A stretch of DNA of 64,000 nucleotides from Campylobacteraceae bacterium (GCA_027080995.1 JALWNT010000039.1:1-64000), one strand, 5' to 3'. Positions 4,685 to 64,000 are shown, counted from the stretch's first letter. Made by a program: numbers and translations. Notes: generated by a model from the sequence alone, not told the origin.

Positions 4685-5851
4685 TTAGAGGCTCTGTTTG
4701 AATTCGGGATAGGATTCCATTCCGCATTCGACGTAGTCGAGCCCTTCGAGTTGTTCGTCGTCGCTGGCGCGGAAAGGTGCGAAAGCATTGATGATCCGCA
4801 GCACGATGTAGGAGCTGACAAAAGCGAAGATCGCGACGACCAGGATTCCTTTGATCTGGGCCCAGAGAGAGACGTCGGCGAAGAATGCGACGGCGAGCGT
4901 CCCCCAGATGCCATTGACGAGATGAACGGAGAGGGCTCCGACCGGGTCGTCGATCTGTAGGCGGTCGAAGAAAGGAACGGCCAGCATAACCAGCAAAGCG
5001 GCGACGGCTCCGATAAGGATCGGAGAGTAAATGTCGAAGAGGTCGGCTCCGGCGGTGATGGCGACCAATCCGCCGAGCGCCCCGTTGAGAATCATCGTGA
5101 TGTCGAGTTTTCGGTAGCGAAGGTAGAGGACGATCATCGCGGTGATCGCTCCGGCGAGACCGGCGGTGTTGGTGTTGAGGATTGTCAAAGCGACCGTATC
5201 GGCTGCTTCTTTGCTGCTGATGGATCCCACGCTGCCGCCGTTGAATCCGAACCAGCCGATCCAGAGCAGAAAGGCTCCCAGAGTCACGAGCGGTATGTTG
5301 GAAGCGGGGATGACTTTGATTTTGCCGTTTTTGTAGCGGCCTTTGCGGGGGCCGATGATCAAAATCGCCGCCAGCAGTGCCCACGCGCCGGTGGAGTGAA
5401 TGACCGTCGATCCGGCCAAATCATGCATCGAAGAGATGTCGAGAAAGGTTCCTTTCAGGAAATCGGCTCCCCAGGTGATATTGACGACCAGGGGATAGAT
5501 GATCGCCGCCATAGCGATCGTGAAGATCGTCAGAGGGAAAATCCGGGTGCGTTCGCTGACCCCGCCGCTCATAATGTTGACGGTTTTCCCGACGAAAGCC
5601 ATCTGAAAAAGAAACGCGGCCCATTTGCTCATCGAACTGTTGTCCCAGCTTCCGAAGGCGACGCTGTATCCCACGAGAAGGAAGGCCATCGAGGCGACCG
5701 AATAGATCATCGTATTGGCCATCAATACCGCCGAGACGTTTTTGGTGCGAACCAGACCGGCTTCGAGCATCGCGAAGCCCGGTACCATAAAGATGATCAA
5801 CGTCATCGCGAAGAGGGCGAAGAAGGTGTTTAGGATATAGGAAACATCCAT
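4685..5851 (-). CDS. amtB: Ammonium transporter Amt
   Basis: Inner-membrane ammonium channel of the Amt/Mep/Rh family, 388 aa with about eleven hydrophobic segments. The pore twin histidines are present in AGSTVIHSTGAWALL and GALSVHLVNGIWGT. The start at 5851 (MDVSYILNTFF) follows a good AAGGAG site; the open frame extends 21 residues upstream but without a ribosome site. It is first in an amtB-glnB unit. A 9-bp inverted repeat lies 110 nt upstream and may be a control site. Confidence 0.95.
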   Translation of the reverse strand: MDVSYILNTFFALFAMTLIIFMVPGFAMLEAGLVRTKNVSAVLMANTMIYSVASMAFLLVGYSVAFGSWDNSSMSKWAAFLFQMAFVGKTVNIMSGGVSERTRIFPLTIFTIAMAAIIYPLVVNITWGADFLKGTFLDISSMHDLAGSTVIHSTGAWALLAAILIIGPRKGRYKNGKIKVIPASNIPLVTLGAFLLWIGWFGFNGGSVGSISSKEAADTVALTILNTNTAGLAGAITAMIVLYLRYRKLDITMILNGALGGLVAITAGADLFDIYSPILIGAVAALLVMLAVPFFDRLQIDDPVGALSVHLVNGIWGTLAVAFFADVSLWAQIKGILVVAIFAFVSSYIVLRIINAFAPFRASDDEQLEGLDYVECGMESYPEFKQSL

Positions 5852-5960
5852 CGAAAGACTCCTTGTTCTGAATTTGATGCGGTAATAAATTTTATCGATC
5901 TCTTCTGTCTTCAATATAAAAATTCTTTTCGGGAGTGATCAATAAATGTGCTACCTCCTG

Positions 5961-5993
5961 AGCATATTTTAATAATAGAAGGTCAAATATGCT
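5961..5993. promoter_or_regulatory. Inverted repeat upstream of amtB
   Basis: AGCATATTT (5961-5969) and AAATATGCT (5985-5993) form a perfect 9-bp dyad with a 15-nt AT-rich spacer, 110 nt upstream of amtB and about 150 nt upstream of the divergent DUF89 gene. The rest of the 288-nt gap holds no gene. A hexamer dyad GTTCTA/TAGAAC lies closer to the DUF89 gene near 6087-6102. A regulator-binding role is inferred only from symmetry and position. Confidence 0.35.
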
Positions 5994-6139
5994 TAAAAAA
6001 TGAGCAACGAGGCCGTATTGATTCTTCCTCATGATGAATCCTGTTTGAACATTCTGAAAAAGCTCTCTTGGACATTATTGAGAAGGTTCTATTCATAGAA
6101 CGATTGGATAGACTGTCAAAAAAATTCAGGAGCGATTCG

Positions 6140-7015
6140 ATGAATATGAAACCCGACTGCCTTGCGTGCCTTTATACCCAGATGCTGCGGGTGACAAAGG
6201 CGGTGGAGTGTAGCGAGAGCTGTGCGACGGAGGTGATGGAGGAGAGCGCGGAGCGTCTCGCGCATCTGCGGATGGATCAGACGCCTCCGGAAGCGGCGGC
6301 GATCCTCTATCCGGCCGCTTCGGAGGCGGTGGGGGAAGCGGACCCCTACCGGAAGAAAAAGGCCGAATCGATCGCAAAGGCGCAGCGGCTGCTGCCCGGT
6401 GTGAGGGAGCGTATCGACCGCTCCGCGGATCCCCTCGATGCCGCGCTCAGAGCGGCAGTGGCGGGCAACGTCATCGACTTCGCGACCGAAGTGAGCTTCG
6501 ATCTGGAGGAGGAGATCGACCGGATCTTCGAAGCGGAGTTCGGATGGGACGACAAAGCGGAATTCCTCGAGCGGCTCGGGCGTGCGCGGCGCCTGGCGGT
6601 GATCGGCGACAACGTCGGGGAGCATCTCTTCGACAAAGTGATGATGGAGCGTTTTCGTGCCGCGTACCCCGATCTGGCGATCGACTATTTCGTCCGGGGG
6701 CGACCGATCATCAACGACGTCACCGTCGCCGAAGCGCGTGAAGCGGGGATCGACGAAGTGGCCCGGATCGTCGACAGCGGAGTCGATACCCCGGGCTTCC
6801 TCCTTGAACGTGCCTCGGAAGAGGGGCGTGCGGCCTTCGAAGACGCCGATTTGATCCTCGCCAAAGGAATGGGAAATTTCGAATGCATGGAGTCCTGGGC
6901 CGATGCACGGGTTTTCTTCCTCTTCAAAGTCAAATGCTCCGTGGTCGCGGCCAAAGTCGGGCGGGAAGTGGGTGATCTGGTCTGCCTGGCCGCCGAGCAT
7001 TATGCCCGGATGTGA
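6140..7015 (+). CDS. DUF89/ARMT1-like damage-control phosphatase domain protein
   Basis: A 291-residue DUF89 protein; characterised relatives are metal-dependent phosphatases that remove damaged sugar or cofactor phosphates. Visible family features are the N-terminal CLACLYTQ cysteine motif, VIGDNVGEHLFDKV, the GRPIINDVT motif and ILAKGMGNFECME, together supplying the Asp/Asn metal ligands. ATG at 6140 follows CAGGAG; an in-frame ATG at 6068 would add 24 residues but lacks a ribosome site. It is a single-gene unit; the physiological substrate cannot be told. Confidence 0.85.
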   Translation: MNMKPDCLACLYTQMLRVTKAVECSESCATEVMEESAERLAHLRMDQTPPEAAAILYPAASEAVGEADPYRKKKAESIAKAQRLLPGVRERIDRSADPLDAALRAAVAGNVIDFATEVSFDLEEEIDRIFEAEFGWDDKAEFLERLGRARRLAVIGDNVGEHLFDKVMMERFRAAYPDLAIDYFVRGRPIINDVTVAEAREAGIDEVARIVDSGVDTPGFLLERASEEGRAAFEDADLILAKGMGNFECMESWADARVFFLFKVKCSVVAAKVGREVGDLVCLAAEHYARM

Positions 7016-7097
7016 GATGGCAGGGAAGCTCTCAGCATTTTTCCCGTAATTTCCAGAAATATTTCCCTTCTTCATTCTTCTTTCCACTCCACAGCGT

Positions 7098-7103
7098 TAT
7101 AAT
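7098..7103 (+). promoter_or_regulatory. -10 element of ppk2
   Basis: A consensus TATAAT in the context GCGTTATAATCGG lies 37 nt upstream of the ppk2 start. As at other genes here, no clear -35 box is seen, which fits Campylobacterota vegetative promoters. Confidence 0.6.
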
Positions 7104-7139
7104 CGGTCATATTGCAAGTCATAAGAAAGGAAGAAAAAA

Positions 7140-8030
7140 ATGGAAGCGATCGGCCAAGAAAAAATCGACATCGACGGAGAGGCGGTAGAACTCTCTCAAC
7201 TGGTGGAAGCCTACAAAAAGAGCAAAAATCCCATCGAGAGCAAAGCGAAGCGGAAATACAGAGAGGCGCAGGAGCTCAAACCCTACCAGGCGGAGTTGAT
7301 CAAACTCCAAAAGCACTTGGAGCAGACCAACGAAAAAATGATCATCCTCTTCGAAGGAAGGGACGCCGCCGGCAAGGGCGGGACGATCCGCCGGGTGACC
7401 CGCTATATGAATGAAAAGCACTACCGGGTCGTCGCCCTGGGCAAGCCCACCGAGGAACAGCGCACGCAGTGGTACTATCAGAAATACGTCAACCACTTCC
7501 CCCGCGGCGGCGAGATCGTCCTTTTTGACCGCTCCTGGTACAACCGCGCGATGGTGGAGTCGGTCTTCGGCTTCTGTACTCCCAAAGAGTATGAAGATTT
7601 CATGCAAGGAGTCAAGGGGTTTGAGAAAGATCTGATCCGGCAGGGAATCAATCTGATCAAACTCTACTTCAGTGTCACGAAAGAGGAGCAGGCCCGCCGT
7701 TTCGAAAAGCGCAAGACCGATCCTCTGCGCCAGTGGAAACTGAGCGAGATCGACGTGCAGGCGCAGGAGCGCTGGGATGACTTCACCAACACCAAATACG
7801 AAATGCTGCGCCGTACCCACAGCCACGAAACCCCCTGGACGATCATCCGATCCGACGACAAGCACAAAGCACGCCTGGAGGCGATCAAAGTGATTCTCAA
7901 CAGTGTCCGCTACGAAGGCAGGGACCCCGAGATCGATTATGTGACCGATCCCGAAATTGTCGTTTCCGGATCGCGCGAACTCGAACTGATGGAAGCCGAA
8001 CGGATCAAGGAGGGGAAATTCCTGGGATAA
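7140..8030 (+). CDS. ppk2: Polyphosphate kinase 2 family protein
   Basis: Cytosolic PPK2 enzyme (296 aa) that transfers phosphate between polyphosphate and nucleotides; members of this size class usually use polyP to make NTP or NDP. Walker A GRDAAGKGG is at residues 73-81 and the Walker B/lid motif FDRSWYNRA at 129-137, both complete. ATG follows AAAGGAAG. It is a single-gene unit between the DUF89 gene and ruvA, each with its own -10 element. Whether the favoured direction is nucleotide or polyP synthesis is not visible from sequence. Confidence 0.93.
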   Translation: MEAIGQEKIDIDGEAVELSQLVEAYKKSKNPIESKAKRKYREAQELKPYQAELIKLQKHLEQTNEKMIILFEGRDAAGKGGTIRRVTRYMNEKHYRVVALGKPTEEQRTQWYYQKYVNHFPRGGEIVLFDRSWYNRAMVESVFGFCTPKEYEDFMQGVKGFEKDLIRQGINLIKLYFSVTKEEQARRFEKRKTDPLRQWKLSEIDVQAQERWDDFTNTKYEMLRRTHSHETPWTIIRSDDKHKARLEAIKVILNSVRYEGRDPEIDYVTDPEIVVSGSRELELMEAERIKEGKFLG

Positions 8031-8136
8031 ACGCAAAGCTTTGATTGAACTCTCTCAAAATTTGAGGTATTTTGGGGGTGCGGTGATAAAAATCTTTCTT
8101 TTCGCCATTGAAATGGCTGCATAGCGTAGAATGGGA

Positions 8137-8142
8137 TAGAAT
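8137..8142 (+). promoter_or_regulatory. -10 element of ruvA
   Basis: TAGAAT in the context GGGATAGAATTTTAGAC, 33 nt before the ruvA start, is a good extended -10 candidate. A short hairpin (GCCATT/AATGGC) just upstream near 8105-8118 has its T-run on the left side, so it does not look like a terminator for ppk2. Confidence 0.5.
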
Positions 8143-8175
8143 TTTAGACAAATTTACCGGAATCAAGGAAGCCTC

Positions 8176-8733
8176 ATGCTTGTAGGGATCGAAGGAAAGA
8201 TCGAAGTCAAAGAGCCGACCTATCTGCATTTGAACGTCGGAGGATTGATCTATGAAGTGAATGTCTCGGTGAACAGCTCCAATGCCATCGAGGGGAAAGA
8301 GGTCCGCCTCTTCGTGACGCAGATTTTGCGTGAAGATGCCGATCTGCTCTACGGATTCGTCGATCGCAACGAAAAGAAGATGTTTGATACCTTGTTGAAG
8401 ATCAACGGAGTGGGCCCCAAGGTCGCTCAGGCGGTTTGCTCCACGTTCACCCCCGAGACCTTTGCGAGGATCGTCGCCTCCAAAGATGTCGGTCTCTTGA
8501 AACGGGTTCCGGGGATCGGCCCCAAAGCGGCGAGTCGAATTCTCGTAGAATTGGCCGATTTTATCATCGAGAGCGGGGAGACAAAGCAGGGTGCGACGGA
8601 GCAGAACGAAGCCGTCTTGGCCTTGGAGAGTCTCGGATTCAAAAAAGAGGCGATTCGCAAAGCACTGTCCGGAGAGAGCGGCGATACGGCGACTCTTGTC
8701 AAGATTGCGTTGAAAAAACTGCAGAGACTGTAA
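8176..8733 (+). CDS. ruvA: Holliday junction branch migration protein RuvA
   Basis: RuvA binds Holliday junctions as a tetramer and loads the RuvB motor. The 185-residue product is close to the usual 190-205. It starts with the oligonucleotide-binding domain ([10 protein letters not shown]), has two helix-hairpin-helix motifs ([12 protein letters not shown] and [13 protein letters not shown], about residues 76-125) and ends with the C-terminal RuvB-contact domain ([16 protein letters not shown]). ATG follows AAGGAAG. No ruvB or ruvC is adjacent, as is common in this phylum. Confidence 0.95.
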
Positions 8734-8823
8734 AGAGGTCTTTCCGAGTACTCCCTTCCTTGCACTTCTTGGATATTTGGGAACTCCGAAGAGAGAGTCT
8801 CTCCGGCAGAGGAGAGGAAGCTC

Positions 8824-9873
8824 TTAGCGCTTCTCGTCTTTGCGCACTTCTTTGAAGAGTGTGTCGAATTTGTTTTGCAGTTCTTTGTAGAGTTTCGCGG
8901 GCTCGTTTTTGCCTTTGATCTCTTTTTCTATGGCGTTGATTTGATCGGTCAGCGCTTTGTACTCGGGAGCGTGTCTTTGGGTGTATCCCAGAAGTTCGGC
9001 ACGCTTGAGTTCGTTTTTGGCACTTTCAAGCAGCTTGAGGGCTTCTTTTTTCTTCTCTTTGGCCAGTTTGGCTGCTTCCATCGTCATATCCTGTGCCAGC
9101 ATGAGGGGAATGGGCACGACGTCGGTGACGGCGACGAGAGTACCGAAGCCCTCGGAGAGGACCATCAGAGCTTCACGCGCTTTTCCTTTTTTCAGGAGTT
9201 CGGCGGCTTTTTTGGTGACAAGAGGATAAGTTTTCATCGGCAGATATTGCACAGTAAAATCCATCTCGTCACGCAGAGGCATTAGCAGGTCACGTGCATC
9301 CTGTGTTGCGTGTTTTTTGATCAATTCATCGGCCAGCTCGAGCGCTTTTTCGATGGTGGCGGTGCTGCCGGCAAACGTCTTGATCTGGATCGCCTGAGCG
9401 ACGGGAAGCAGGTCGAGTTTTGGATTGGCCTTCAGCGCTTTGTCGAAATCTTTCGACGCAATCTCCAAGTCTTTGGCTGCCTCTTTGAGTTTGTTCATCC
9501 GAATATCCTGCGCCGCTTTTCCGGTCAGTCGGATCGCTTCCATGACCTCTTTGGGGGTCTTTTTGAGCAAATCTTTTTCCTGGTGGAACGCGGCTTCTCG
9601 GCGGAAAATCCGCTGCAGACGCTTCATCCGATCCATCCGGGCTTCCTGGGCGAATTTGGGTGCATCCATTTTACTCAGGAAGAGATCTTTCTCCTGCAGC
9701 TCCTCTTCGGTGGCTCTGGCGCTACTTTCACCGGGGACTCCGTTTTTCTGCAGCGCCTGGGCTTCTTCTTTGGCGACGGTATCCTTCATCCCCCCGCCCG
9801 CTTGCAGACTCATTGTCCCCAGTCCGAGGATCAGCGCGGATGCTACCAGTGACATTGTCAGACGTTTTTTCAT
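8824..9873 (-). CDS. YfdX family exported protein
   Basis: A 349-residue protein with a clear signal peptide (MKKRLTMSLVASALILGLGTMSLQA cut near residue 25) and a helical C-terminal half with the YfdX signature DEMDFTVQYLPMKTYPLVTK followed by AREALMVLSEGFGTLVAVTDVVPIPL. YfdX-type proteins are acid- or stress-induced and often periplasmic; their molecular role is unclear. ATG follows AAAGGAAG. The gene converges with ruvA; the 90-nt gap contains a CTCTCC/GGAGAG hairpin near 8799-8816 without a T-run. The N-terminal ~120 residues are charged and helical and are longer than in typical YfdX proteins. Confidence 0.75.
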   Translation of the reverse strand: MKKRLTMSLVASALILGLGTMSLQAGGGMKDTVAKEEAQALQKNGVPGESSARATEEELQEKDLFLSKMDAPKFAQEARMDRMKRLQRIFRREAAFHQEKDLLKKTPKEVMEAIRLTGKAAQDIRMNKLKEAAKDLEIASKDFDKALKANPKLDLLPVAQAIQIKTFAGSTATIEKALELADELIKKHATQDARDLLMPLRDEMDFTVQYLPMKTYPLVTKKAAELLKKGKAREALMVLSEGFGTLVAVTDVVPIPLMLAQDMTMEAAKLAKEKKKEALKLLESAKNELKRAELLGYTQRHAPEYKALTDQINAIEKEIKGKNEPAKLYKELQNKFDTLFKEVRKDEKR

Positions 9874-9958
9874 TTTTCTTCCTTTGAAAAGTTTTGTTTC
9901 AATCTGAATTATGACTTTTATAAATAAATGGAAGTTAAATGTTGAACATCGATTCGGT

Positions 9959-9964
9959 TATAAT
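9959..9964 (+). promoter_or_regulatory. -10 element of the 9993 membrane gene cluster
   Basis: Perfect TATAAT in the context GGTTATAATCTC, 29 nt before the 9993 start. It probably drives the cluster that includes the 11273 gene and the NnrS gene, since spacings downstream are short. Confidence 0.55.
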
Positions 9965-9992
9965 CTCTTTTTGAAAAGGGAAAAGGAGAGCA

Positions 9993-11201
9993 ATGATCGC
10001 CAACATAATCGTCATATTTACGACACTCGTACTGACACTTCTGCTTTTTTCCAAGCCGGTGGAGAAGAGCTCCTGGTGGGCGGCCACCGTCATCCCTCTG
10101 GCGTCGATCATCGGCAGCGGCTTTCTCGTCGTGGCCCCGATCCTGCAAATGAGTATGGGGCGATTCGCCGCCTTCGCGATGACAGGCCTGGTCATTGTCG
10201 CCTACCTGATCGGCGCGGCGATCCGCTTCAACATCCGCTGGGTGGAGCCCAAGCTCGCCGCCGGGACACTGCACCGTGCTCCCTGGAGCCTTGAGAAGCT
10301 CTCCCAGTGGGCGCTCTCCTTCGCCTACATCGTTTCCGTGACCTATTATCTTTCGCTTTTCGGCGATTTTGTCCTGCGAGGGGTCAACGTCGTCGATCCT
10401 GTGCTCTCTCATACGATCACTAGCGCCGTATTGATCTTTATCGCTGTTTATGGACAGCATCGGGGCTTCAACTTTTTGGGGCGTTTCGAAGCGCTCAAGC
10501 TGGGAATCATCGGCGGCTTGCTCGCGGGTTTGGCTTGGGGCAACTGGAAAGCCTGGGAGGCGGGGATCTGGCATCTACCGCAGACGACGGAGCCGAGCCT
10601 GCATGATTGGCGGATCGTTCTGGGGATGCTGATCGTCGTCCAGGGGTTCGAAACCTCCCGCTACCTCGGCGATAAATTCCCGCCCAAACTTCGAATCCGA
10701 ACCATGCGCTACGCCCAGTGGATCAGCGGGGGGATTTATGTGGTCTATCTGACGCTGATGCTCTATTATTTCAACTATCCTCTTCCTCCGCACGGTCAAG
10801 ATACCGCTATTATCACGTTGACGAAACATGTCGCGACGGTCCTGCCGGTGATGCTGCTGGTGCTGGCATTGATCGCCCAGTTCGATGCGGCCATCGCCGA
10901 TGCTCAGGGGGGCAGCGGGTTGATGGAAGAGCTGAGTGCCCGGAGGATCACTTTGGGAATGGGGTATGCGATCATCGCCGTAGGCGGCTTGCTCATCGTC
11001 TGGACTTCCAACATTTTTCAGATCATCACCTATGCTTCACAGGCGTTTGCCGTCTACTATATGCTTCAGAGCATGGTGGCGGCCTTGACGGCGGCAGCTC
11101 ATGAGGATATTTCCTGGCGTTGGCCGAAATTTTTCGGTTTCACATTGGTCGCTTCCATTGCTGCAGCCGTCGTCTTTTTCGGTGTGCCTGCGGGTGGATG
11201 A
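9993..11201 (+). CDS. Polytopic membrane protein, APC-transporter-like
   Basis: A 402-residue integral membrane protein with about eleven hydrophobic helices. Short stretches resemble amino acid/cation (APC-fold) permeases: IIGSGFLVVAP after the first helix, FEALKLGIIGGLLAGL and VQGFETSRYLGDKF. I cannot name a substrate. ATG follows AAAAGGAGAG. The next gene is 71 nt downstream, with a possible 23-codon ORF (11205-11276) in between that overlaps its start. It could be a transporter or a sensor-like orphan; only membrane location is well supported. Confidence 0.6.
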   Translation: MIANIIVIFTTLVLTLLLFSKPVEKSSWWAATVIPLASIIGSGFLVVAPILQMSMGRFAAFAMTGLVIVAYLIGAAIRFNIRWVEPKLAAGTLHRAPWSLEKLSQWALSFAYIVSVTYYLSLFGDFVLRGVNVVDPVLSHTITSAVLIFIAVYGQHRGFNFLGRFEALKLGIIGGLLAGLAWGNWKAWEAGIWHLPQTTEPSLHDWRIVLGMLIVVQGFETSRYLGDKFPPKLRIRTMRYAQWISGGIYVVYLTLMLYYFNYPLPPHGQDTAIITLTKHVATVLPVMLLVLALIAQFDAAIADAQGGSGLMEELSARRITLGMGYAIIAVGGLLIVWTSNIFQIITYASQAFAVYYMLQSMVAALTAAAHEDISWRWPKFFGFTLVASIAAAVVFFGVPAGG

Positions 11202-11272
11202 TGCATGACTTGGAATGAAAAATCCAAAGAGGAGAAACAGGTGAAAGAACGATCGAAGCAGCGGAAAAACCG

Positions 11273-11845
11273 ATGATTGACCGGGCCAAAGTGCAGGAGC
11301 TGGTCGAGAGGCTTCAGGAGACGGAAGCGGAACTCTATCGGGAACTGCGGGATGAGAAAGAACGGGTTACTTGTGATTTCGCCGAGGAGCGAATCGGCCT
11401 GTGGGAGTATATTCGCAGAGGGAAGATCCGCTACGGGATCAGTGCGCCGATCATTTATGCGATGATCATCCCGGCAGTGATCCTCGATCTATGCGTGACG
11501 ATATATCAAGCGACCTGTTTCCCCCTCTACGGCATTCCCAAAGTACGGCGTCGGGATTACATCGCAATCGATCGACACCGGCTCCCCTATCTCAATGCTC
11601 TTCAGAAGCTCAATTGCGTCTATTGCGGCTATTTCAACGGCTTGATCGATTATGTCCGGGAGATCGCTTCACGGACTGAGCAATTTTGGTGTCCGATCCG
11701 TCACGCCCGACGTATCAAGGGCGTCCCTTCGCGTTACTGGCATTTTTTACGTTACGGTGACGGAAAAGATTTGAACAAACGCTGGAAAAAGCTGCGCCAG
11801 GAAGTGATCGAAGATTCTGATGAAATGTCACGGGGGTTCCGATGA
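11273..11845 (+). CDS. Conserved hypothetical protein with C-x2-C motif
   Basis: A 190-residue protein I do not recognise by function. It has an N-terminal charged helix (VQELVERLQETEAELY), one or two central hydrophobic segments (ISAPIIYAMIIPAVILDLCV, about 56-75, and ATCFPLYGI) and a cysteine motif LNCVYCGYFNGLIDYV near residue 117, then CPIRHARRIKGVPSRYWHFL. The cysteines and histidines could bind a metal or heme. It overlaps the NnrS gene by ATGA, suggesting they are made together. Association with denitrification stress is inferred from that neighbour only. Confidence 0.7.
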   Translation: MIDRAKVQELVERLQETEAELYRELRDEKERVTCDFAEERIGLWEYIRRGKIRYGISAPIIYAMIIPAVILDLCVTIYQATCFPLYGIPKVRRRDYIAIDRHRLPYLNALQKLNCVYCGYFNGLIDYVREIASRTEQFWCPIRHARRIKGVPSRYWHFLRYGDGKDLNKRWKKLRQEVIEDSDEMSRGFR

Positions 11846-13023
11846 ATAGCCCTTTTTTTTCCCAACCCCATCGTCCTTTTTTCGTGTTGGGAATCCTCAA
11901 CGCCGTTGTCTTCATGCTCCTCTTCCGACTGGCCTATACCGGAGTCTTGGGGATTGATGCGAAACTGTTACATGCCTACAGCATGTTTTTCCTTGTTTTT
12001 ACGAATTTTTTCTACGGGTTTACCTACACGACCTTTCCCCGTTTCTGTGCCACGGCTCCCATCGATTCTCGGCGGTACCTGCGGGTTTGGGTTTTGCAGG
12101 TTTTGGCGACGCTCAGTTTTCTTGCGACGTTTTGGCTTCCCTTCGCTTTTTATGCGACGGTGCTCTTCGTTGCCACCTCTTTGGCGTATACACTGCGAAT
12201 TTTTCTCGGGATTTATCGGCGGGCTTCCGCACCCAGGGAAGATCCCTACTGGATCATCGTCGCCTACGGGATGGGGGCATTGGCCAATCTGCTCTTTTTG
12301 TTGGCGGAGATCCCCTGTACGCATTGTCGGGCGGGAATCTTCTTTGAGTATGCGGTCTCGGTGGGGCTCTATCTTTATCTGATTTTTCTTCCTACGGTTA
12401 TCGCTTTTCGGATGGTTCCTCTTTTTAGTCGGGTCATGGGATATCGCAAAAGTCCCTGGCTTTCACGGGCGGTTATCGGCTTGCTTTTGTTGCATGTCCT
12501 TGTCGGGGGATATGCTTCCCGCTGGCTCTTTGGAGTGGATCTGATTTTGGCGGGAGTGCTCGGGCGGGAGATTTTACGCATGGAGCCTCCCTTTCCCAAT
12601 CGGGATCCGCTGCTTTGGGGGCTTCATTTGGCGATCTTCTGGCTCCCTCTGGGCTTTTTCCTGGGGGCGCTTTCGGAATTGGCCGGGGCATGGTTCTCAG
12701 TACCGATGTTGCGTCTGCCGCTGCATCTGTTGGCTTTGGGGTTTCTGACGACCATCCTTGTCGCTTTCGGGGCCCGGGTGACGCTGGGACACGGAGGAGC
12801 TTCTCTGCGGTCGGGACGAGGGAGCTCTTTGCTTTTTGCCTCGACCCAGCTTGTGCTGCTCGGACGACTGATCTTGAGTTTTGCGGTGGGAAGCGGAGCT
12901 TTTTTCCTCCTTTTCGATTTGAGCGTCGCACTCTGGATCGCACTCTTCCTCTTTTGGAGTGTTTTGTACGGTAGAATCCTTCTTTTCGGGGCACGCGTCG
13001 GGGCACGCGGTCCCGGAGAGTGA
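11842..13023 (+). CDS. nnrS: NnrS family heme-copper membrane protein
   Basis: NnrS is a heme- and copper-containing inner-membrane protein that helps cells tolerate nitric oxide during denitrification. The 393-residue product has about twelve hydrophobic helices, the N-terminal signature HRPFFVLG and the conserved late motif RVTLGHGG, where the histidine is a likely metal ligand. It starts in the stop of the 11273 gene (ATGA). A methyltransferase follows 28 nt later. The presence of NnrS fits a nitrate-respiring organism. Confidence 0.88.
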   Translation: MNSPFFSQPHRPFFVLGILNAVVFMLLFRLAYTGVLGIDAKLLHAYSMFFLVFTNFFYGFTYTTFPRFCATAPIDSRRYLRVWVLQVLATLSFLATFWLPFAFYATVLFVATSLAYTLRIFLGIYRRASAPREDPYWIIVAYGMGALANLLFLLAEIPCTHCRAGIFFEYAVSVGLYLYLIFLPTVIAFRMVPLFSRVMGYRKSPWLSRAVIGLLLLHVLVGGYASRWLFGVDLILAGVLGREILRMEPPFPNRDPLLWGLHLAIFWLPLGFFLGALSELAGAWFSVPMLRLPLHLLALGFLTTILVAFGARVTLGHGGASLRSGRGSSLLFASTQLVLLGRLILSFAVGSGAFFLLFDLSVALWIALFLFWSVLYGRILLFGARVGARGPGE

Positions 13024-52880: not shown

Positions 52881-54173
52881 TTATCGTTCCTCCGTTTTCG
52901 CAGTGCTTTTAGAAGAGCTCTCCCTCTCCCGCCGGGGCAACTCGGAGCGGGGGACGAACTCCAGGACGTTGGCATTGATACAGAAGCGGCGCCTCCCGCC
53001 GGGGGCGTCGTCGAAGACGTGGCCCAGATGCGCGCCGCTGGTTTTGGCGATCACTTCGGTGCGGTGCATGCCGTAGCTGTTGTCGGGCCGCTCGACGACA
53101 GCTCCGGGTTGCGCCCGGTAGAAGCTGAGCCATCCCGAATGGGAGTTGAAGCGATCCCGGGTATCGAAGAGGATATCTCCCGAGAGCTTGTCCACGAAGA
53201 CCCCGTCGCCGGTGTTTTTGAAGAGGGCGTACTTTTTGCAGAATCTCGGCTCGGTGCCGCGCTTGAAGGCGATGTCGTACGCTTCGCTGTTTTCCCCGAG
53301 CTTGAAGGCCCCCAGGGCCTTGTAGAACTCCTTGGGGCTCAGATAGCCGGTATGGGCGGCCACCTCTTTGCCGTTTTGGATGAAGTAGATCGTGGGCGTA
53401 CCGATGACGGGAGTTTTGAGCTTGAAGCCCCTGATCTGCTCTTCACGGGCGAAGCGCAAGGGGATCGTTCCGTGGTAGCCTGAAGCGACCTTTTTCTTGA
53501 AGGCTTTGCAGTAGGGGCAATTCTCGGCGTCGATGACCAGGATCTCCTTGCCTTCCAGCGGGGTGATGGCTTTGGTGTTTTGGACCTTTGCTTTGGCCTT
53601 GGCCGGGAATTTGACTCCCGTGGCGTGGTTGGGGCAGTAGCCGCTGGGGTTTTTCTTGAGATAGTCCTGATGGAAGGCTTCGGCGGGGTAGAACTTTTTC
53701 AGCGGTCGGATCTCGGTGACGATTTTTCCGTAGCCGGCTTTGGAGAGCAGCTTCTGATACTCGGCTTTGGTTTGCAGGGCGATCACTTTCTGCTCGGGGG
53801 TGGTGTAAAAGATGGCGCTGCGGTAGTTGTTGCCCCGGTCGTTGCCCTGGCGATCTTTCTGGGTGGGGTCGTGGAGCTCCCAAAAAGATTTGATGAGATC
53901 TTCGGTGGAGATTTTGGCGTCGTCGTAGGTGACTTTGACCGATTCGGCGTAGTTGACGATCCCTTTGGGAGTGTCGTAGCGGTAGGAGAGAACCTTGTGG
54001 TAGGTCGGATCGGGATAGTTCCCTCCGGCGTAGCCCGACTGAGCGTCGATCACTCCCGGGAGGTTTTCGAAATGCTTCTCCACTCCCCAGAAACAGCCGG
54101 CGGCGAAGACGATGGTCTGGGGCTTGGCCAGCAGGCCCAGGGTGAGGGCGAAGATAAAAGCGAGGAGTTTCAT
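52881..54173 (-). CDS. msrAB: MsrA-thioredoxin-MsrB fusion methionine sulfoxide reductase
   Basis: A 430-residue exported fusion. After the signal peptide (MKLLAFIFALTLGLLA) comes MsrA with the catalytic VFAAGCFWGVEKHF, and LKKFYPAEAFHQDYLKKNP. Residues ~205-300 form a thioredoxin-like domain with a CPYC redox site (VIDAENCPYCKAFKKKV) and cis-Pro GTPTIYF. The C-terminal MsrB has FVDKLSGDILFDTRDRFNSHSGW and the catalytic Cys in RRRFCINANVLEFVP; the zinc CxxC pairs are missing. It repairs oxidised periplasmic proteins, the central domain probably recycling both catalytic sites. ATG at 54173 follows AAAGGTGACCG. Confidence 0.92.
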   Translation of the reverse strand: MKLLAFIFALTLGLLAKPQTIVFAAGCFWGVEKHFENLPGVIDAQSGYAGGNYPDPTYHKVLSYRYDTPKGIVNYAESVKVTYDDAKISTEDLIKSFWELHDPTQKDRQGNDRGNNYRSAIFYTTPEQKVIALQTKAEYQKLLSKAGYGKIVTEIRPLKKFYPAEAFHQDYLKKNPSGYCPNHATGVKFPAKAKAKVQNTKAITPLEGKEILVIDAENCPYCKAFKKKVASGYHGTIPLRFAREEQIRGFKLKTPVIGTPTIYFIQNGKEVAAHTGYLSPKEFYKALGAFKLGENSEAYDIAFKRGTEPRFCKKYALFKNTGDGVFVDKLSGDILFDTRDRFNSHSGWLSFYRAQPGAVVERPDNSYGMHRTEVIAKTSGAHLGHVFDDAPGGRRRFCINANVLEFVPRSELPRRERESSSKSTAKTEER

Positions 54174-54315
54174 AACGGTCACCTTTTAGATAATTTTTTC
54201 TATTTGAGAAGTTATAGCATAAATAGGTGCAGTTTTCTCCTCATCGAATGAGAATGCCTAACGGAACTCTGCGCTGAAGCAGGGTAAAATGGAGAAAAAA
54301 TTCGGAGTGTATGTG

Positions 54316-59120: not shown

Positions 59121-59200
59121 CAAGATAAAGCCAAACCCGCCGTGAGACGGGGACGGAAAGCCATGGATCTCCCCAAAAGGAGATTGCCAGGTTACCTAAC
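59121..59200 (+). promoter_or_regulatory. Cyclic di-GMP-I (GEMM) riboswitch
   Basis: The 80 nt contain the GEMM-I core in the right order: AAAGCCAAACC (usual GGGCAAACC), a stem with a GTGA tetraloop (59142-59145), GGGGACGGAAAGCC (usual GGGACGCAAAGCC), a second stem CTCCCC-AAAA-GGAGA, and TGCCAGGTTACC, which matches the conserved 3' end (..GGGTTACC). It lies 124 nt before the first PilJ-type gene. The tail region 59265-59315 holds a possible stem (GGACG/CGTCC) without a T-run, so control may be translational. A weak -10 (TTTAAT, 59089-59094) sits just upstream. It is the main content of the 407-nt gap 58918-59324. Confidence 0.82.
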
Positions 59201-59324
59201 GAAAAGGATTTTCATTTCAAGAGTTGGGAAAAGAGTGATGATCAGTTCGCTTCATCTTGTCAAAGTCAGGGAAGGGGGACGAAGAGACGACGTCCTTCTC
59301 AATCATAAATTCAAAGGAGCGAAA

Positions 59325-60104
59325 ATGAGAATTATAAGTAAAATCGCCAGGATTCTTCTGTTTGTTCTGGCAATGGGAGGAGCTTCTTACGCCGTCGAAA
59401 TCAAAAACCTCGCTCAGGCGGTCAACGAAGCGGGTCGCCAACGGATGTTGACACAAAGGATGTTGAAAGACTACGCCATGATTGGAATGAAAAACAGTTT
59501 TGGAAATCCGCAGGAGGACCTAAAAAAAGTAGTGAATACTTTCGAAGATCATTTGGTTGCACTTACGACTTTTGCTAAAGATCCGGAGACGAAGAAGAGT
59601 CTGGAGGCACAGAGAAAACTCTGGAATCCGATTCGAAAGATGCTTCAAGAGCCTCCCACCAAGGAGCGAGCGGAAGTACTGCAAAAGAAGCTGGATGCGC
59701 TGCTTAAAGCTGCAGATACGACGACAAAACTGTTTGCCAAGCAGACCGGGAAAAAGTCTGGAGCTATTATCAACATATCCGGGCGGCAGCGTATGCTCTC
59801 CCAAAGGATGGCCAGCCTCTATATGCTGAGAGTGTGGGGGATCAAAGATCCGCAATTCAAAAAGAAAATGGATGACGCGATGCAACTCTTCTCAAGCTCA
59901 CTCGACAAACTTATGCACTCGGATTTGAACACCGATAAAATCAACAAGCTGCTGATGCGTGTCAAAAACAATTTTATGTTTTTTCAGGTCATGAACCGGG
60001 CGCAGAACCACTATATCCCTTCACTGATCTATAAGAAGTCGAATGAAATTCTCAAAGACATGAATACGATCACCGGTCTTTATGCAGCCGAAAAGGTGCA
60101 ATAA
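59325..60104 (+). CDS. Exported double PilJ/NarX-like domain protein (1)
   Basis: A 259-residue periplasmic protein: signal peptide (MRIISKIARILLFVLAMGGASYA) and two copies of the PilJ-type helical sensor motif, AGRQRMLTQRM at residues 36-46 and SGRQRMLSQRM at 152-162. The motif resembles the P-box of nitrate sensors NarX/NarQ and of PilJ. No other domain or membrane anchor is present, so it probably binds a ligand and works with another protein, the likely one being the kinase at 61778. ATG follows AAAGGAGCGAAA. First gene of the operon behind the GEMM riboswitch. Confidence 0.85.
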   Translation: MRIISKIARILLFVLAMGGASYAVEIKNLAQAVNEAGRQRMLTQRMLKDYAMIGMKNSFGNPQEDLKKVVNTFEDHLVALTTFAKDPETKKSLEAQRKLWNPIRKMLQEPPTKERAEVLQKKLDALLKAADTTTKLFAKQTGKKSGAIINISGRQRMLSQRMASLYMLRVWGIKDPQFKKKMDDAMQLFSSSLDKLMHSDLNTDKINKLLMRVKNNFMFFQVMNRAQNHYIPSLIYKKSNEILKDMNTITGLYAAEKVQ

Positions 60105-60171
60105 GGTGAGTGGGTATATGATGGTGGAAAATTATAGTGGACGAACAATTCAAAATAAGAAGGAGACAGCG

Positions 60172-60990
60172 ATGAAAAAATGTGTACGGAACCTGGCACT
60201 AACTGTGTGCATACTTGCAGGGTTCGGTGGGGTGATGGGGACCCAAGCCGAAGCGGCAAAAACGACGGTAAATCCTCTTGTCAAGAAAGATGCGATTCGT
60301 TTGATCGATATCGCCGGAAAGCAGAGAATGCTTTCTCAAAGGATTGCGAAGGATTATCTCTATATCGGCAAAAAAGTGGCGGTGGACAAAGCCAGAAAAG
60401 AACTGAAAGCATCGATCACGGAGTTCAAAGCCAATCAGGCTAAACTGGAGGAGATGATCAACGATCCCGAGATCAAGAATCTCCTTGCTTTCGTCAATAT
60501 GAGTCTGAATGAATTGGAAGGGATCGTTCAAAAACCCTTTTCACTGGACAATGCCCAACTGGTTCTGGACCTGAGTGAATCGATGCTTGAGGGAAGCCAG
60601 TATGTTGTTGATTCCCTTAAAAAGATTGCCAACGTTAAAGAATCCAGGATTATTGCCATCTCCGGTAAACAGCGAATGCTCGCACAGCGGATTGCTAAAT
60701 ATTACATTGCCTATCAGGCGGGAATCAAAGACAAAAATACCGTCGATCAGATGAAAGCTGCTGTCAATGAGTTCGCCAAAAATCACAAAATTCTCATGGA
60801 GAATAAAGACAATACGGCGACGATCAATCAAAAACTAGCCCAGGTCGATCGGCTCTGGAAGATTGTATATAAGTTCTATCTGAATATTGAAAAAGGCGGA
60901 CTGCCCTTTATCGTCTACACGACAACGAATGATATTACAAAAAAGATGAACGAGATTACCGAACTTTATGTACAGCTCTATAATAAATAA
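60172..60990 (+). CDS. Exported double PilJ/NarX-like domain protein (2)
   Basis: A 272-residue paralogue of the preceding gene with signal peptide (MKKCVRNLALTVCILAGFGG..AEA) and two intact PilJ motifs, AGKQRMLSQRI (48-58) and SGKQRMLAQRI (164-174), each heading a helical bundle of ~115 residues. Tandem arrangement and related repeats point to local gene duplication. ATG follows AGAAGGAGACAGCG. It lies 67 nt after the first paralogue and 10 nt before the third. Periplasmic ligand binding is inferred. Confidence 0.85.
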   Translation: MKKCVRNLALTVCILAGFGGVMGTQAEAAKTTVNPLVKKDAIRLIDIAGKQRMLSQRIAKDYLYIGKKVAVDKARKELKASITEFKANQAKLEEMINDPEIKNLLAFVNMSLNELEGIVQKPFSLDNAQLVLDLSESMLEGSQYVVDSLKKIANVKESRIIAISGKQRMLAQRIAKYYIAYQAGIKDKNTVDQMKAAVNEFAKNHKILMENKDNTATINQKLAQVDRLWKIVYKFYLNIEKGGLPFIVYTTTNDITKKMNEITELYVQLYNK

Positions 60991-61000
60991 GGAGAGAGAG

Positions 61001-61759
61001 ATGAAAGTTATTCTCTGGATCCTGCTTCTCCTGACGGGGATTCAGCAGACAGCATCAGCGGCGACCCGTGCCGAAGTCAATGTTCTGGAGGCGACGGAAA
61101 ATATCCGGTATCTCAGTCAACGCCTAAGCAAGAACTACCTCTATCTCTATGCAAATCCTCTGAAAAAGGAAATTAGAAAAGAGATTCAATCCGATTTGGC
61201 AGGGCTTGTCAAAAATATTCGAACTATTTCAATGACGACCAGTGACGAAGATACGAAAAATATTCTGGAGTTTCTTACCTACAGCAAAGATCAGATTACT
61301 CAATTGATCAAAGAAAAACCAACGAAAGAGCGGGCGGCTTTGATGCTTGATTACAGTGAAACCCTGCTGGAAGGCGCCAATTCAATTGCCAAAGAGCACA
61401 GTTATCTTTTCAGTGAAAGTGAACAGATGCTGATGATAGGCAAAAGCATCGATTATCTGCTTGAACGGAGTGCTAAGTACTATCTTGCACTCGGTATCGG
61501 TCTGGGAACGGAAGTCAATCGGAAACAGATGCAAGAAAGTCTCGATGCACTCGAAGAGAAGATTGGAATTCTTGAAAAGTATAGTTATCCGAAAGAGATG
61601 TCGGTTTCAAAAAAAGATTTAAAGAGTTTTTGGAAAGTAACAAAGAGTTTCTTTGATCGACAGAAGAAAATCTTTGTCTCGAACCTAATGGTCCTCGCGA
61701 CAAACGAGTTGGAGAAGATCGATTCTCGATTCATTCTCTACCATAGAAAAAACCAATAG
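61001..61759 (+). CDS. Exported PilJ-like protein with degenerate motifs (3)
   Basis: A 252-residue paralogue with signal peptide (MKVILWILLLLTGIQQTASA). The PilJ motifs have decayed: TENIRYLSQRLSKNYLYL near residue 34 keeps LSQR but loses the G-x-QRM start, and SIDYLLERSAKYYLALG near 155 keeps little but the spacing. The rest follows the same helical layout. Loss of the conserved motifs suggests loss of ligand binding or a structural role. ATG follows AAGGAGAGAGAG. Confidence 0.75.
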   Translation: MKVILWILLLLTGIQQTASAATRAEVNVLEATENIRYLSQRLSKNYLYLYANPLKKEIRKEIQSDLAGLVKNIRTISMTTSDEDTKNILEFLTYSKDQITQLIKEKPTKERAALMLDYSETLLEGANSIAKEHSYLFSESEQMLMIGKSIDYLLERSAKYYLALGIGLGTEVNRKQMQESLDALEEKIGILEKYSYPKEMSVSKKDLKSFWKVTKSFFDRQKKIFVSNLMVLATNELEKIDSRFILYHRKNQ

Positions 61760-61777
61760 AGTCAGGAGAACAGCCTC

Positions 61778-64000
61778 ATGAAAAAGACCAATCAGAAAAT
61801 CCTTTTTTATCTGTTGATGCTCCTGACGATTGCCATCATCGCCGCACTTGGATGGTTTGGGTTCAAAGCCTACAATGCTTATGAAAAAGATCGTATCAAT
61901 GTGGATCGTTTTTCGGTAATGACCGAAACTGAGCAGTTGATCGAGAATGTAGGAGCTGAAAGACTTGCAAGTGCGGCTTTCCTCGCAAGTGGAGAAAAAT
62001 GGAGACAACAGGAACTCAAAAAAAGACGTCAGAAAGTCGATACAGGTCTGTTAAATCTGCGTCATGCACTTCAGCGTTACAAACTGAAAAACGATCTTTC
62101 ACTTCTCAACAATGTAGCCAATGAAGTCAAAGCGGTACGATCGCGAATAGATGCGATGAGCCAGGAGTATCGCGATCTGTTTGTCGGAAGTTTTCAAAAG
62201 CGTATTGCCGATCCGCTTTTGAAAATCTATACAAACACGACAGGACTTTTCAAACGTTTGGGACGTGTGAAAGAGCTGAAATTCAACGAAGGGTTGATGC
62301 GTCTTTACATTGATGAAGATTTAGAGAGAAGTTACATCGCCTATCTTCTTTCTGTCGAAAAAACGATGAACAATGAGGATTTGAAGATTTGGGATCAGGT
62401 GATCAGTCAGGATGCACTCCCCACTTTTGTCGACATTAAAGACATACTTCTACGAAGTCGTTTGAAAGACATTCTCGTACCTGACCGCTTTTCAGTAATG
62501 ATCAATCCTCTGCGTCAATCAGTGCTCTACGGTATCAACAACGGCAAATATCCCATCAAACCGAAGAAGTGGATCGACGGAAACAATGATCGGATCAAAA
62601 AGATCATCGTAGCGGCTTCAATGGTAAACAAACAGCTCCGGACTCAGATGCTGAACAAACTGGAAAAAGAAAAGAGACTGATGATCCAGTACGGAGTCGC
62701 CGTACTCTTTTTCCTTATTCTGTTGATCATTTTCATCGTTATTTTCTACAACATCAACAAAGAGTCGAAACTGCTCGACGAAACTCTTAAAAATATTGAA
62801 TTCGAGCTGGATCCTCATCGGAAACGCCAGTTGCAAGAGATCGTACAAAGACGGGATCTTCCCGCGATCTACAATTTTCTTGCACAGACAATTCGGGAAG
62901 CCAATGAAACAAAGGATCTCTTTCTGGCCAATATGTCGCACGAGATTCGTACTCCTTTGAACGGGATTGTCGGGTTTACTCAGCTCCTGAAGAACACTCC
63001 GATGACACCGGATCAGGAAGAGTTCATTTCTGTCATTGAAAGCAGTTCGGAAAATCTTCTCTCGATTGTTAATGACATTCTCGATCTCTCGAAGATCAAT
63101 GCCGACAAAGTAGAGTTGGAAGAGATCACATTTAACGCACTGGAGAAGTTCGAAGATGCTGTCGAATCCTATGGAGCAAAAGCGGCTCAGAAAGATGTGG
63201 AGTTCAGTGTATTTGTCGATCCTTCGCTCCCAAAAACACTTATCGGGGATCCGACGAAAATTTCACAAGTTATTGTCAACCTGGTCAGCAATGCGATCAA
63301 ATTTACAAGTTCCCACGGACAGGTAGATGTAATTATTGAGAAACGGGAAGAGACAGAAACGGATGCTACCGTCTACTTCGCGGTACGGGATACAGGAATC
63401 GGTATCAGCGAAGAGCAGAAAGAGAAAATTTTCGAAGCCTTTTCACAAGCCGATGCCGGTACGAGTCGAAAATACGGAGGCACAGGTCTCGGTCTGGCTA
63501 TTTCGAGCAAATTGGTCGAACGGATGGGCGGACATCTAGACATCGATAGTACAATCGGAGAAGGCTCGACTTTCTTCTTCGAATTGACTCTACCCAAAGG
63601 TGAAGATCAGGAGAAATATATTCCGGATGTCAGCGGTCTGCAGACGGCGATCGTCCTCCCCAAAAAAGATATGGTGCGTCAGACAGATATCAATCTCAAG
63701 AGATACGTGGAGTATTGCAGTGCAGAGTTCGAGGTTCTAAGTTACGATGACATTTTTGATCGGACTGATCTTGAGATGCCTGATATCCTGTTCGTTGATC
63801 ACAAATATTGCCGTCGTGCACGTGAACTCGATATGTTCCTAGAATTGAATACGCGCATCGTCCTGCTGACAACCGGTGAATTGAAAAAAGAAGCTGAGGC
63901 GGTGATGGATCGACTTAGCAAAATTATCTACAAACCAGTCAACTTTTCGAAAACGGTTCGAGCGCTTGAGAGCATTCATGAAGTTGTCGCAGAAGGGGCG
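61778..64000 (+). CDS. Sensor histidine kinase with NIT (nitrate/nitrite-sensing) domain, 3' truncated
   Basis: Open from ATG 61778 (after GTCAGGAG) to the window end, 741 residues visible, no stop reached. A first membrane helix ([20 protein letters not shown]) leads to a periplasmic domain of ~270 residues with the NIT-type start [22 protein letters not shown], then a second helix ([20 protein letters not shown], ~308-327), HisKA with [14 protein letters not shown] and a complete ATPase ([37 protein letters not shown]). After it, residues ~625-740 look like a degenerate receiver ([22 protein letters not shown]). More receiver or HPt domains may lie beyond the window. It is the likely signalling partner of the three PilJ-type proteins. 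Confidence 0.88.

Follow-up and report, generated by a model that had tools for sequence, protein, structure and literature searches.

The final kilobases of a 64,000-nucleotide window (the first 64 kb of a 139-kb contig, JALWNT010000039.1, in the 1.97 Mb genome of a Campylobacteraceae bacterium, GCA_027080995.1) hold an operon in which a riboswitch of the c-di-GMP-I-GGC type (c-di-GMP, cyclic diguanosine monophosphate) is followed on the plus strand by genes for three exported proteins, which we call PilJ1, PilJ2 and PilJ3, and for a hybrid histidine kinase. We tentatively think, with a confidence only just short of even, that this operon may encode a split periplasmic nitrate-sensing system, composed of soluble receptors, an adaptor, a kinase with a NIT-type sensor domain and a supply set by c-di-GMP. 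PilJ1 and PilJ2 would be secreted soluble nitrate receptors, each chain consisting of two PilJ four-helix bundles packed like the NIT domain of NasR, and PilJ3, in which half of the site is lost, would be an adaptor relaying their state to the NIT-type domain of the kinase, whose own pocket arginines would be dispensable in many lineages. The kinase would then phosphorylate its own receiver and a downstream regulator, and the riboswitch would set the amount of the system, coupling nitrate sensing to the attached or motile state of the cell.

The domain evidence begins with PilJ1 and PilJ2, each of which matches PF13675 in two stretches, with scores (Table 1) above the curated cut-off of 26.6 bits. 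PilJ3 gave no Pfam match above threshold in the profile search, and is related to PilJ2 by BLAST and forms its own clade in the tree, so that of the three tandem PilJ proteins announced in a preliminary description of this DNA, two stand as such and the third stands as a relative. Likewise, the repeat G[RK]QRML[STA]QR that had been ascribed to all three occurs twice in PilJ1 and twice in PilJ2, and has no copy in PilJ3. Their description as exported, anchorless proteins was borne out in full, since each has a single N-terminal hydrophobic stretch (the signal peptide) and no further membrane-like segment. Of particular interest is the N-box, [IVL]-[ND]-x-A-G-x-Q-R-M-L-[ST]-Q, which was defined in McpN, a receptor that binds nitrate and not nitrite, and in which R61 is essential for nitrate binding (PMC6381276). 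The first repeats of PilJ1 and PilJ2 match it exactly and the second repeats carry one to three deviations, with arginine present in all four boxes. Across 27 orthologs of PilJ1 neither repeat varies at the G, Q, R or M of the box, Arg40 and Arg156 included, and the same positions are near-invariant in PilJ2, the best conserved of the three families (mean column identity 62% over 16 orthologs), where R52 is invariant and R168 nearly so. PilJ3 does not fit the pattern: its repeat 1 arginine, R36, is invariant in 17 sequences, and its repeat 2 arginine has given way to D in the window protein and to other, often acidic, residues in orthologs. Because the box is kept in PilJ1 and PilJ2 and half-lost in PilJ3, the three proteins are not equivalent.

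The AlphaFold2 model of PilJ1 (predicted local distance difference test, pLDDT, 93.2; predicted template modelling score 0.89) has eight helices that form two four-helix bundles. Its best match in the PDB over the whole length is NasR of Klebsiella oxytoca (4AKK; template modelling (TM) score 0.67-0.72, probability 1.00), and one half of it matches McpN (6GCV; TM 0.75), which is also the sole significant match when the PilJ1 sequence profile is compared with solved structures (E 9e-6). In NasR the proposed pocket residues, E175/R176, lie in helix 5; the PilJ1 model places its two N-box arginines in helices 1 and 5, and we infer that they face each other. Since the bundles would be paired within one PilJ1 or PilJ2 chain, its two N-box arginines could form a single nitrate site, for which NarQ, NarX and McpN require a homodimer. 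Nitrate is, we think, quite probably the ligand, and on motif grounds would be a better guess than the nitrogen oxides first proposed, because the motif is closer to that of McpN than to those of NarX and NarQ.

The kinase is just as had been suggested, a membrane protein of the same operon with a NIT-like periplasmic domain: its layout is transmembrane segment, periplasmic NIT, transmembrane segment, HisKA, HATPase and receiver, with the membrane segments at aa 4-32 and 299-330 and one canonical receiver domain encoded beyond the end of the window, which the gene overruns by 849 bases. The match to PF08376 (cut-off 24.9 bits) exceeds the cut-off and is partial in the window protein, covering 1-83 of the 239 profile positions; orthologs such as L030 (51.6 bits; labels of this kind are our own) match over nearly the full length, and 17 of 21 ortholog sensor regions match at E<=0.01. 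The model of the sensor domain likewise finds NasR as its best solved fold (E 4e-5). The chain has no PilJ match and no G-x-x-R-M P-box of the NarX/NarQ type, and sequence, orthologs and predicted folds agree that the soluble sensory modules are separate from the NIT kinase. The window protein and 10 of 12 aligned sequences of the genus have R62 and E183-R184, which would correspond to the NasR pocket residues; the R62/R184 pair is lost in eight of nine kinases from outside the genus, where the PilJ1 and PilJ2 boxes mostly persist.

The way in which the four proteins have diverged bears on who might talk to whom. Mean between-locus distances are 0.33 for the kinase core, 0.42 for PilJ2, 0.45 for PilJ1, 0.56 for PilJ3 and 0.73 for the kinase sensor domain, and the highest partial correlation with that sensor domain belongs to PilJ3 (0.38, against 0.23 and 0.10), in a test that uses non-independent locus pairs. 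No kinase core can be recognised in the NIT protein of four loci; at these, PilJ3 retains 25-30% identity, and PilJ1 and PilJ2 retain 45-67%. Such a pattern would be expected with PilJ1 and PilJ2 as the ligand binders and PilJ3 as the protein that meets the kinase, and we regard it as suggestive only. Taken with operon order, the co-divergence of PilJ3 and kinase may point indirectly to a contact between the accessory proteins and the kinase sensor domain; we lean slightly towards the view that they signal to this kinase, and hold the adaptor role of PilJ3 with less conviction, as a possibility somewhat below even. As separate observations, the fourth cassette gene at L040:4750-6288, L051:4072-5700, L053:2256-4010 and L054:4621-5613 keeps a NIT-type region and has no recognisable HisKA, and PilJ3 is at its most divergent in cassettes of this kind. 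Downstream of the cassette on the same contig, L005:13429-14532 encodes a receiver-domain protein with an Hpt-like C-terminal part that, by eye, seems to be without the histidine; as a partner for the kinase it is possible but unsupported. Another kinase type stands beside the same soluble proteins in a Desulfocapsa metagenome-assembled genome (MAG), where PilJ3-like and PilJ1-like genes are followed by a PAS-type hybrid kinase (L061:6961-11609).

The operon is conserved in vent-type Campylobacterota (Sulfurovum relatives). PilJ matches occur in 37 of 60 relatives, and the four-gene cassette is found in 11 of the 12 genus relatives (all except G004; the G010 copy is split over two contigs and the rest are intact), in other genera of the family and in Sulfurovum/Campylobacterales MAGs (L050, L052, L055-L059). 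The order PilJ1-PilJ2-PilJ3-kinase recurs at about 25 loci in differing genomic contexts, with one or more additional PilJ1 copies in L030, L031, L035, L050, L052 and L055. In the window genome trxA/rplI/hslV lie downstream, and elsewhere a UPF0093/DUF2231 pair is found upstream and a pseudouridine synthase gene downstream; since the neighbourhood varies, the four genes travel as a unit. A survey of gene order in Campylobacterota had been set beforehand as the test on which the proposal might fall, and the order proved to be conserved. In a maximum-likelihood tree of 91 proteins, some deeper forks of which are weakly supported, the PilJ1, PilJ2 and PilJ3 types separate, each with members from Campylobacterota and Gammaproteobacteria. 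One might argue that the trio forms a periplasmic module of its own, which has nothing to do with the kinase and is merely co-transcribed with it in Sulfurovaceae. This we consider rather improbable, because the four-gene order is kept across genera with differing neighbourhoods and the divergence of PilJ3 tracks that of the kinase, although such a module would account for PilJ1 and PilJ2 without PilJ3 or kinase in L024, L026 and L063, and for the PilJ1-2-3 trio of L060 and L062, which no kinase follows (both contigs are short). A trio without kinase in Gammaproteobacteria does mean that the kinase is not its sole possible partner.

That c-di-GMP controls the operon is very probable. The element noticed earlier upstream of PilJ1 scores above gathering as a c-di-GMP-I-GGC riboswitch (Table 1) and also matches RF01051 (67.6 bits), and a riboswitch precedes PilJ1 at 13 loci, namely seven of the 12 genus cassettes (our own counted), G021, G026, G030, G034, L052 and L060. 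Not every cassette of the genus has the element. G021 and G030 show PilJ1 only, and a c-di-GMP-I riboswitch also stands upstream of the PilJ1-2-3 trio of L060, which was deposited as a gammaproteobacterial MAG. Elsewhere in the window genome, two further c-di-GMP-I riboswitches, at L046:7753-7827 (C95) and L048:2009-2085 (C67), each lie ahead of a gene for a large secreted protein, of 1621 aa in L046 and of at least 550 aa, with calcium-binding-type repeats by eye, in L048; a fourth, L047:7502-7595, lies near dnaJ without a clear target gene.

There are genomic links to nitrate metabolism among remote relatives. In five Burkholderiales loci (L103, positions 5421-11955, L108, L112, L116 and L117) exported double-PilJ relatives are encoded between nirB and nirD, with nasA adjoining, and in the Azonexaceae L106 and L107 they lie between nirBD and nrtABD; several of these proteins have twin-arginine-like signal sequences. 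The exported double-PilJ protein of these loci is probably an unrecognised component of nitrate assimilation. (Betaproteobacterial neighbours that we had suspected of being NarG/NarH were rejected, being actually YhdP and PmbA/TldD.) In distant Campylobacterota a single-PilJ membrane protein of ~330 aa, with an N-box-like motif and no kinase domain, is encoded beside a CRP-type regulator (L041:4154-8748, L042:5249-6872), and L027:6181-7833 likewise pairs such a regulator with a single-PilJ membrane protein of that size and no kinase domain; napA adjoins the pair in L041 and is on the same contig in L042. The passages located in a review of respiratory regulation in Campylobacterota describe Nss regulators for nitrate in Wolinella and name no nitrate-sensing kinase. 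The pairing may represent a nitrate input for an Nss-like regulator. A different set of exported proteins, of ~560 aa and four PilJ domains, is found at L130:3896-5608 and L131:3833-5515 (219 and 238 bits), and also in L132-L134, often adjoining a secreted protein of ~215 aa.

The nitrate-assimilation loci lend some colour to the idea that the exported PilJ proteins are nitrate carriers or buffers that feed a periplasmic reductase or transporters, with the kinase sensing nitrate by itself. The double-PilJ relatives in nrtABD/nirB/nirD/nasA operons have no kinase beside them, nor has the gammaproteobacterial trio, and the window genome does encode NapA, the periplasmic nitrate reductase. On balance we find a carrier function unlikely: PilJ and NIT folds are known solely as sensory domains, the genes in Campylobacterota go together with that of a kinase bearing a domain of this kind and not with nap genes, and PilJ3, having lost a half-site, would make a poor carrier.

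Several points besides the non-independent locus pairs and the kinase-free trios weigh against the split sensing system that we favour. In Foldseek, PilJ1 matches NasR with a weak E-value (0.045), and when PilJ1 and the kinase NIT domain are compared as profiles the similarity is not significant (probability 3.5%), so the likeness between the two is one of fold only. Neither P. aeruginosa PilJ, which has two PilJ domains but lacks an N-box, nor the NIT domain of PA4520 showed nitrate binding (PMC6381276), and a double-PilJ or NIT fold alone is therefore no proof of it. No dedicated response regulator is conserved beside the kinase, and G026 has the full cassette and no clear NapA match. Conversely, several genomes have NapA without the cassette, and its co-occurrence barely discriminates, given how common NapA is in the order. 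The non-binding domains and the mismatches with NapA would suit an architecture built for some other ligand (nitrite or a different small anion, or else a redox or surface cue), with the N-box kept for structure, as would the large secreted proteins encoded behind other riboswitches of this genome. We give this a low probability, since the box agrees almost exactly with the one in a nitrate-specific receptor, the genes of remote relatives lie among those for nitrate assimilation, and a CRP-type regulator, membrane PilJ protein and napA are grouped in another Campylobacterota genus.

The kinds of component are already known, be it PilJ, NIT, the hybrid kinase or the c-di-GMP-I riboswitch; their proposed arrangement differs from known systems. 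NasR, with eight helices in one chain, offers the best solved fold for both PilJ1 and the kinase sensor domain, and its proposed pocket lies in helix 5, as does the second N-box in the PilJ1 model, but it acts in the cytoplasm as a one-component antiterminator and has an ANTAR domain, whereas the receptor here is exported and lacks any output domain. McpN of Pseudomonas aeruginosa has the PilJ fold and the N-box, but is a membrane chemoreceptor with one PilJ domain that holds nitrate at its homodimer axis. NarX and NarQ link a G-x-x-R nitrate motif in a periplasmic helical bundle to a kinase; their sensor, with its P-box RMQSYR, is within the kinase, whereas this operon encodes N-box proteins apart from the kinase, which has a NIT domain. 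The logic that we propose would resemble that of TorT-TorS, LuxP-LuxQ and XylFII-LytS, in which a membrane kinase is under the control of a soluble periplasmic protein that binds the ligand; the accessory proteins of those systems are built on periplasmic-binding-protein folds, while the ones here are all-helical, NIT-like and three in series. In Staphylococcus, NreA, a cytoplasmic protein, has a GAF fold, unlike the PilJ proteins. As in our proposal, it is a separate soluble nitrate receptor that modulates a kinase, in the NreA-NreBC system (PMC8199190). Secreted ligand-binding modules apart from the kinase and under c-di-GMP-type control were not found in the literature searched, in which subscription papers were incompletely covered. 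A bolder generalisation, which we rate as conceivable but somewhat doubtful, is a c-di-GMP-controlled relay, partly common to two phyla, in which free periplasmic NIT-like covalent pseudo-dimers would capture nitrate and drive the kinase by way of a half-degenerate sibling that acts as adaptor.

For vent and sediment bacteria of the Sulfurovum type, nitrate ranks among the major electron acceptors. If our reading is true, the operon would supply Campylobacterota with a nitrate-sensing kinase, of which the passages located in the respiratory review name none, the NIT/PilJ fold could act as a secreted receptor, and nitrate perception would be linked to the biofilm messenger c-di-GMP. Beyond this operon, Proteobacteria and Bacteroidota have a wider set of exported double-PilJ proteins that seems not to have been characterised, with some members inside nitrate-assimilation operons.

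Table 1. Features of the operon, in window coordinates
Feature	Position	Strand	Evidence
c-di-GMP-I-GGC type riboswitch aptamer	59121..59200	+	RF03167, cmscan 69.3 bits (gathering 59), E 2.5e-14
Expression platform / 5' leader with Shine-Dalgarno AAAGGAG	59201..59324	+	
PilJ1, exported double-PilJ protein, 259 aa	59325..60104	+	PF13675 twice, 77.7 bits
PilJ1 N-box 1, VNEAGRQRMLTQ, key Arg40	59421..59456	+	fits published N-box pattern (PMC6381276)
PilJ1 N-box 2, INISGRQRMLSQ, key Arg156	59769..59804	+	N-box pattern with one deviation
PilJ2, exported double-PilJ protein, 272 aa	60172..60990	+	PF13675 twice, 67.4 bits
PilJ2 N-box 1, IDIAGKQRMLSQ, key Arg52	60304..60339	+	strict N-box match
PilJ2 N-box 2, IAISGKQRMLAQ, key Arg168	60652..60687	+	relaxed N-box
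PilJ3, exported divergent double-PilJ relative, 252 aa	61001..61759	+	BLAST homology, tree clade 100/99
Hybrid histidine kinase, 1023 aa	61778..64000 in window, complete to contig base 64849	+	
Kinase periplasmic NIT-type sensor domain, about aa 36-298	61883..62671	+	PF08376 31.4 bits; AlphaFold pLDDT 88
Kinase HisKA (aa 379-442) and HATPase_c (aa 490-606)	62912..63595	+	79.7 and 105.5 bits

The genes are separated by gaps of 67 bases between PilJ1 and PilJ2, 10 between PilJ2 and PilJ3 and 18 between PilJ3 and the kinase, and a Shine-Dalgarno-like sequence precedes all four start codons. The riboswitch ends 124 bases before the start of PilJ1, and folds of this leader from nine loci gave no common terminator, no common sequester of the Shine-Dalgarno sequence and no consistent ON/OFF mechanism; a potentially start-hiding pairing of UUCGCUUC with GGAGCGAA in the G000 leader was dropped, being absent from the minimum-energy fold of G005. 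No explanation of 'GGC' in the name of the riboswitch variant was found in the literature searched. Elsewhere in the window, positions 52881-54182 hold a 433-aa open reading frame that by eye resembles a fusion of methionine sulfoxide reductase A, a thioredoxin-like part and methionine sulfoxide reductase B, with a signal peptide.

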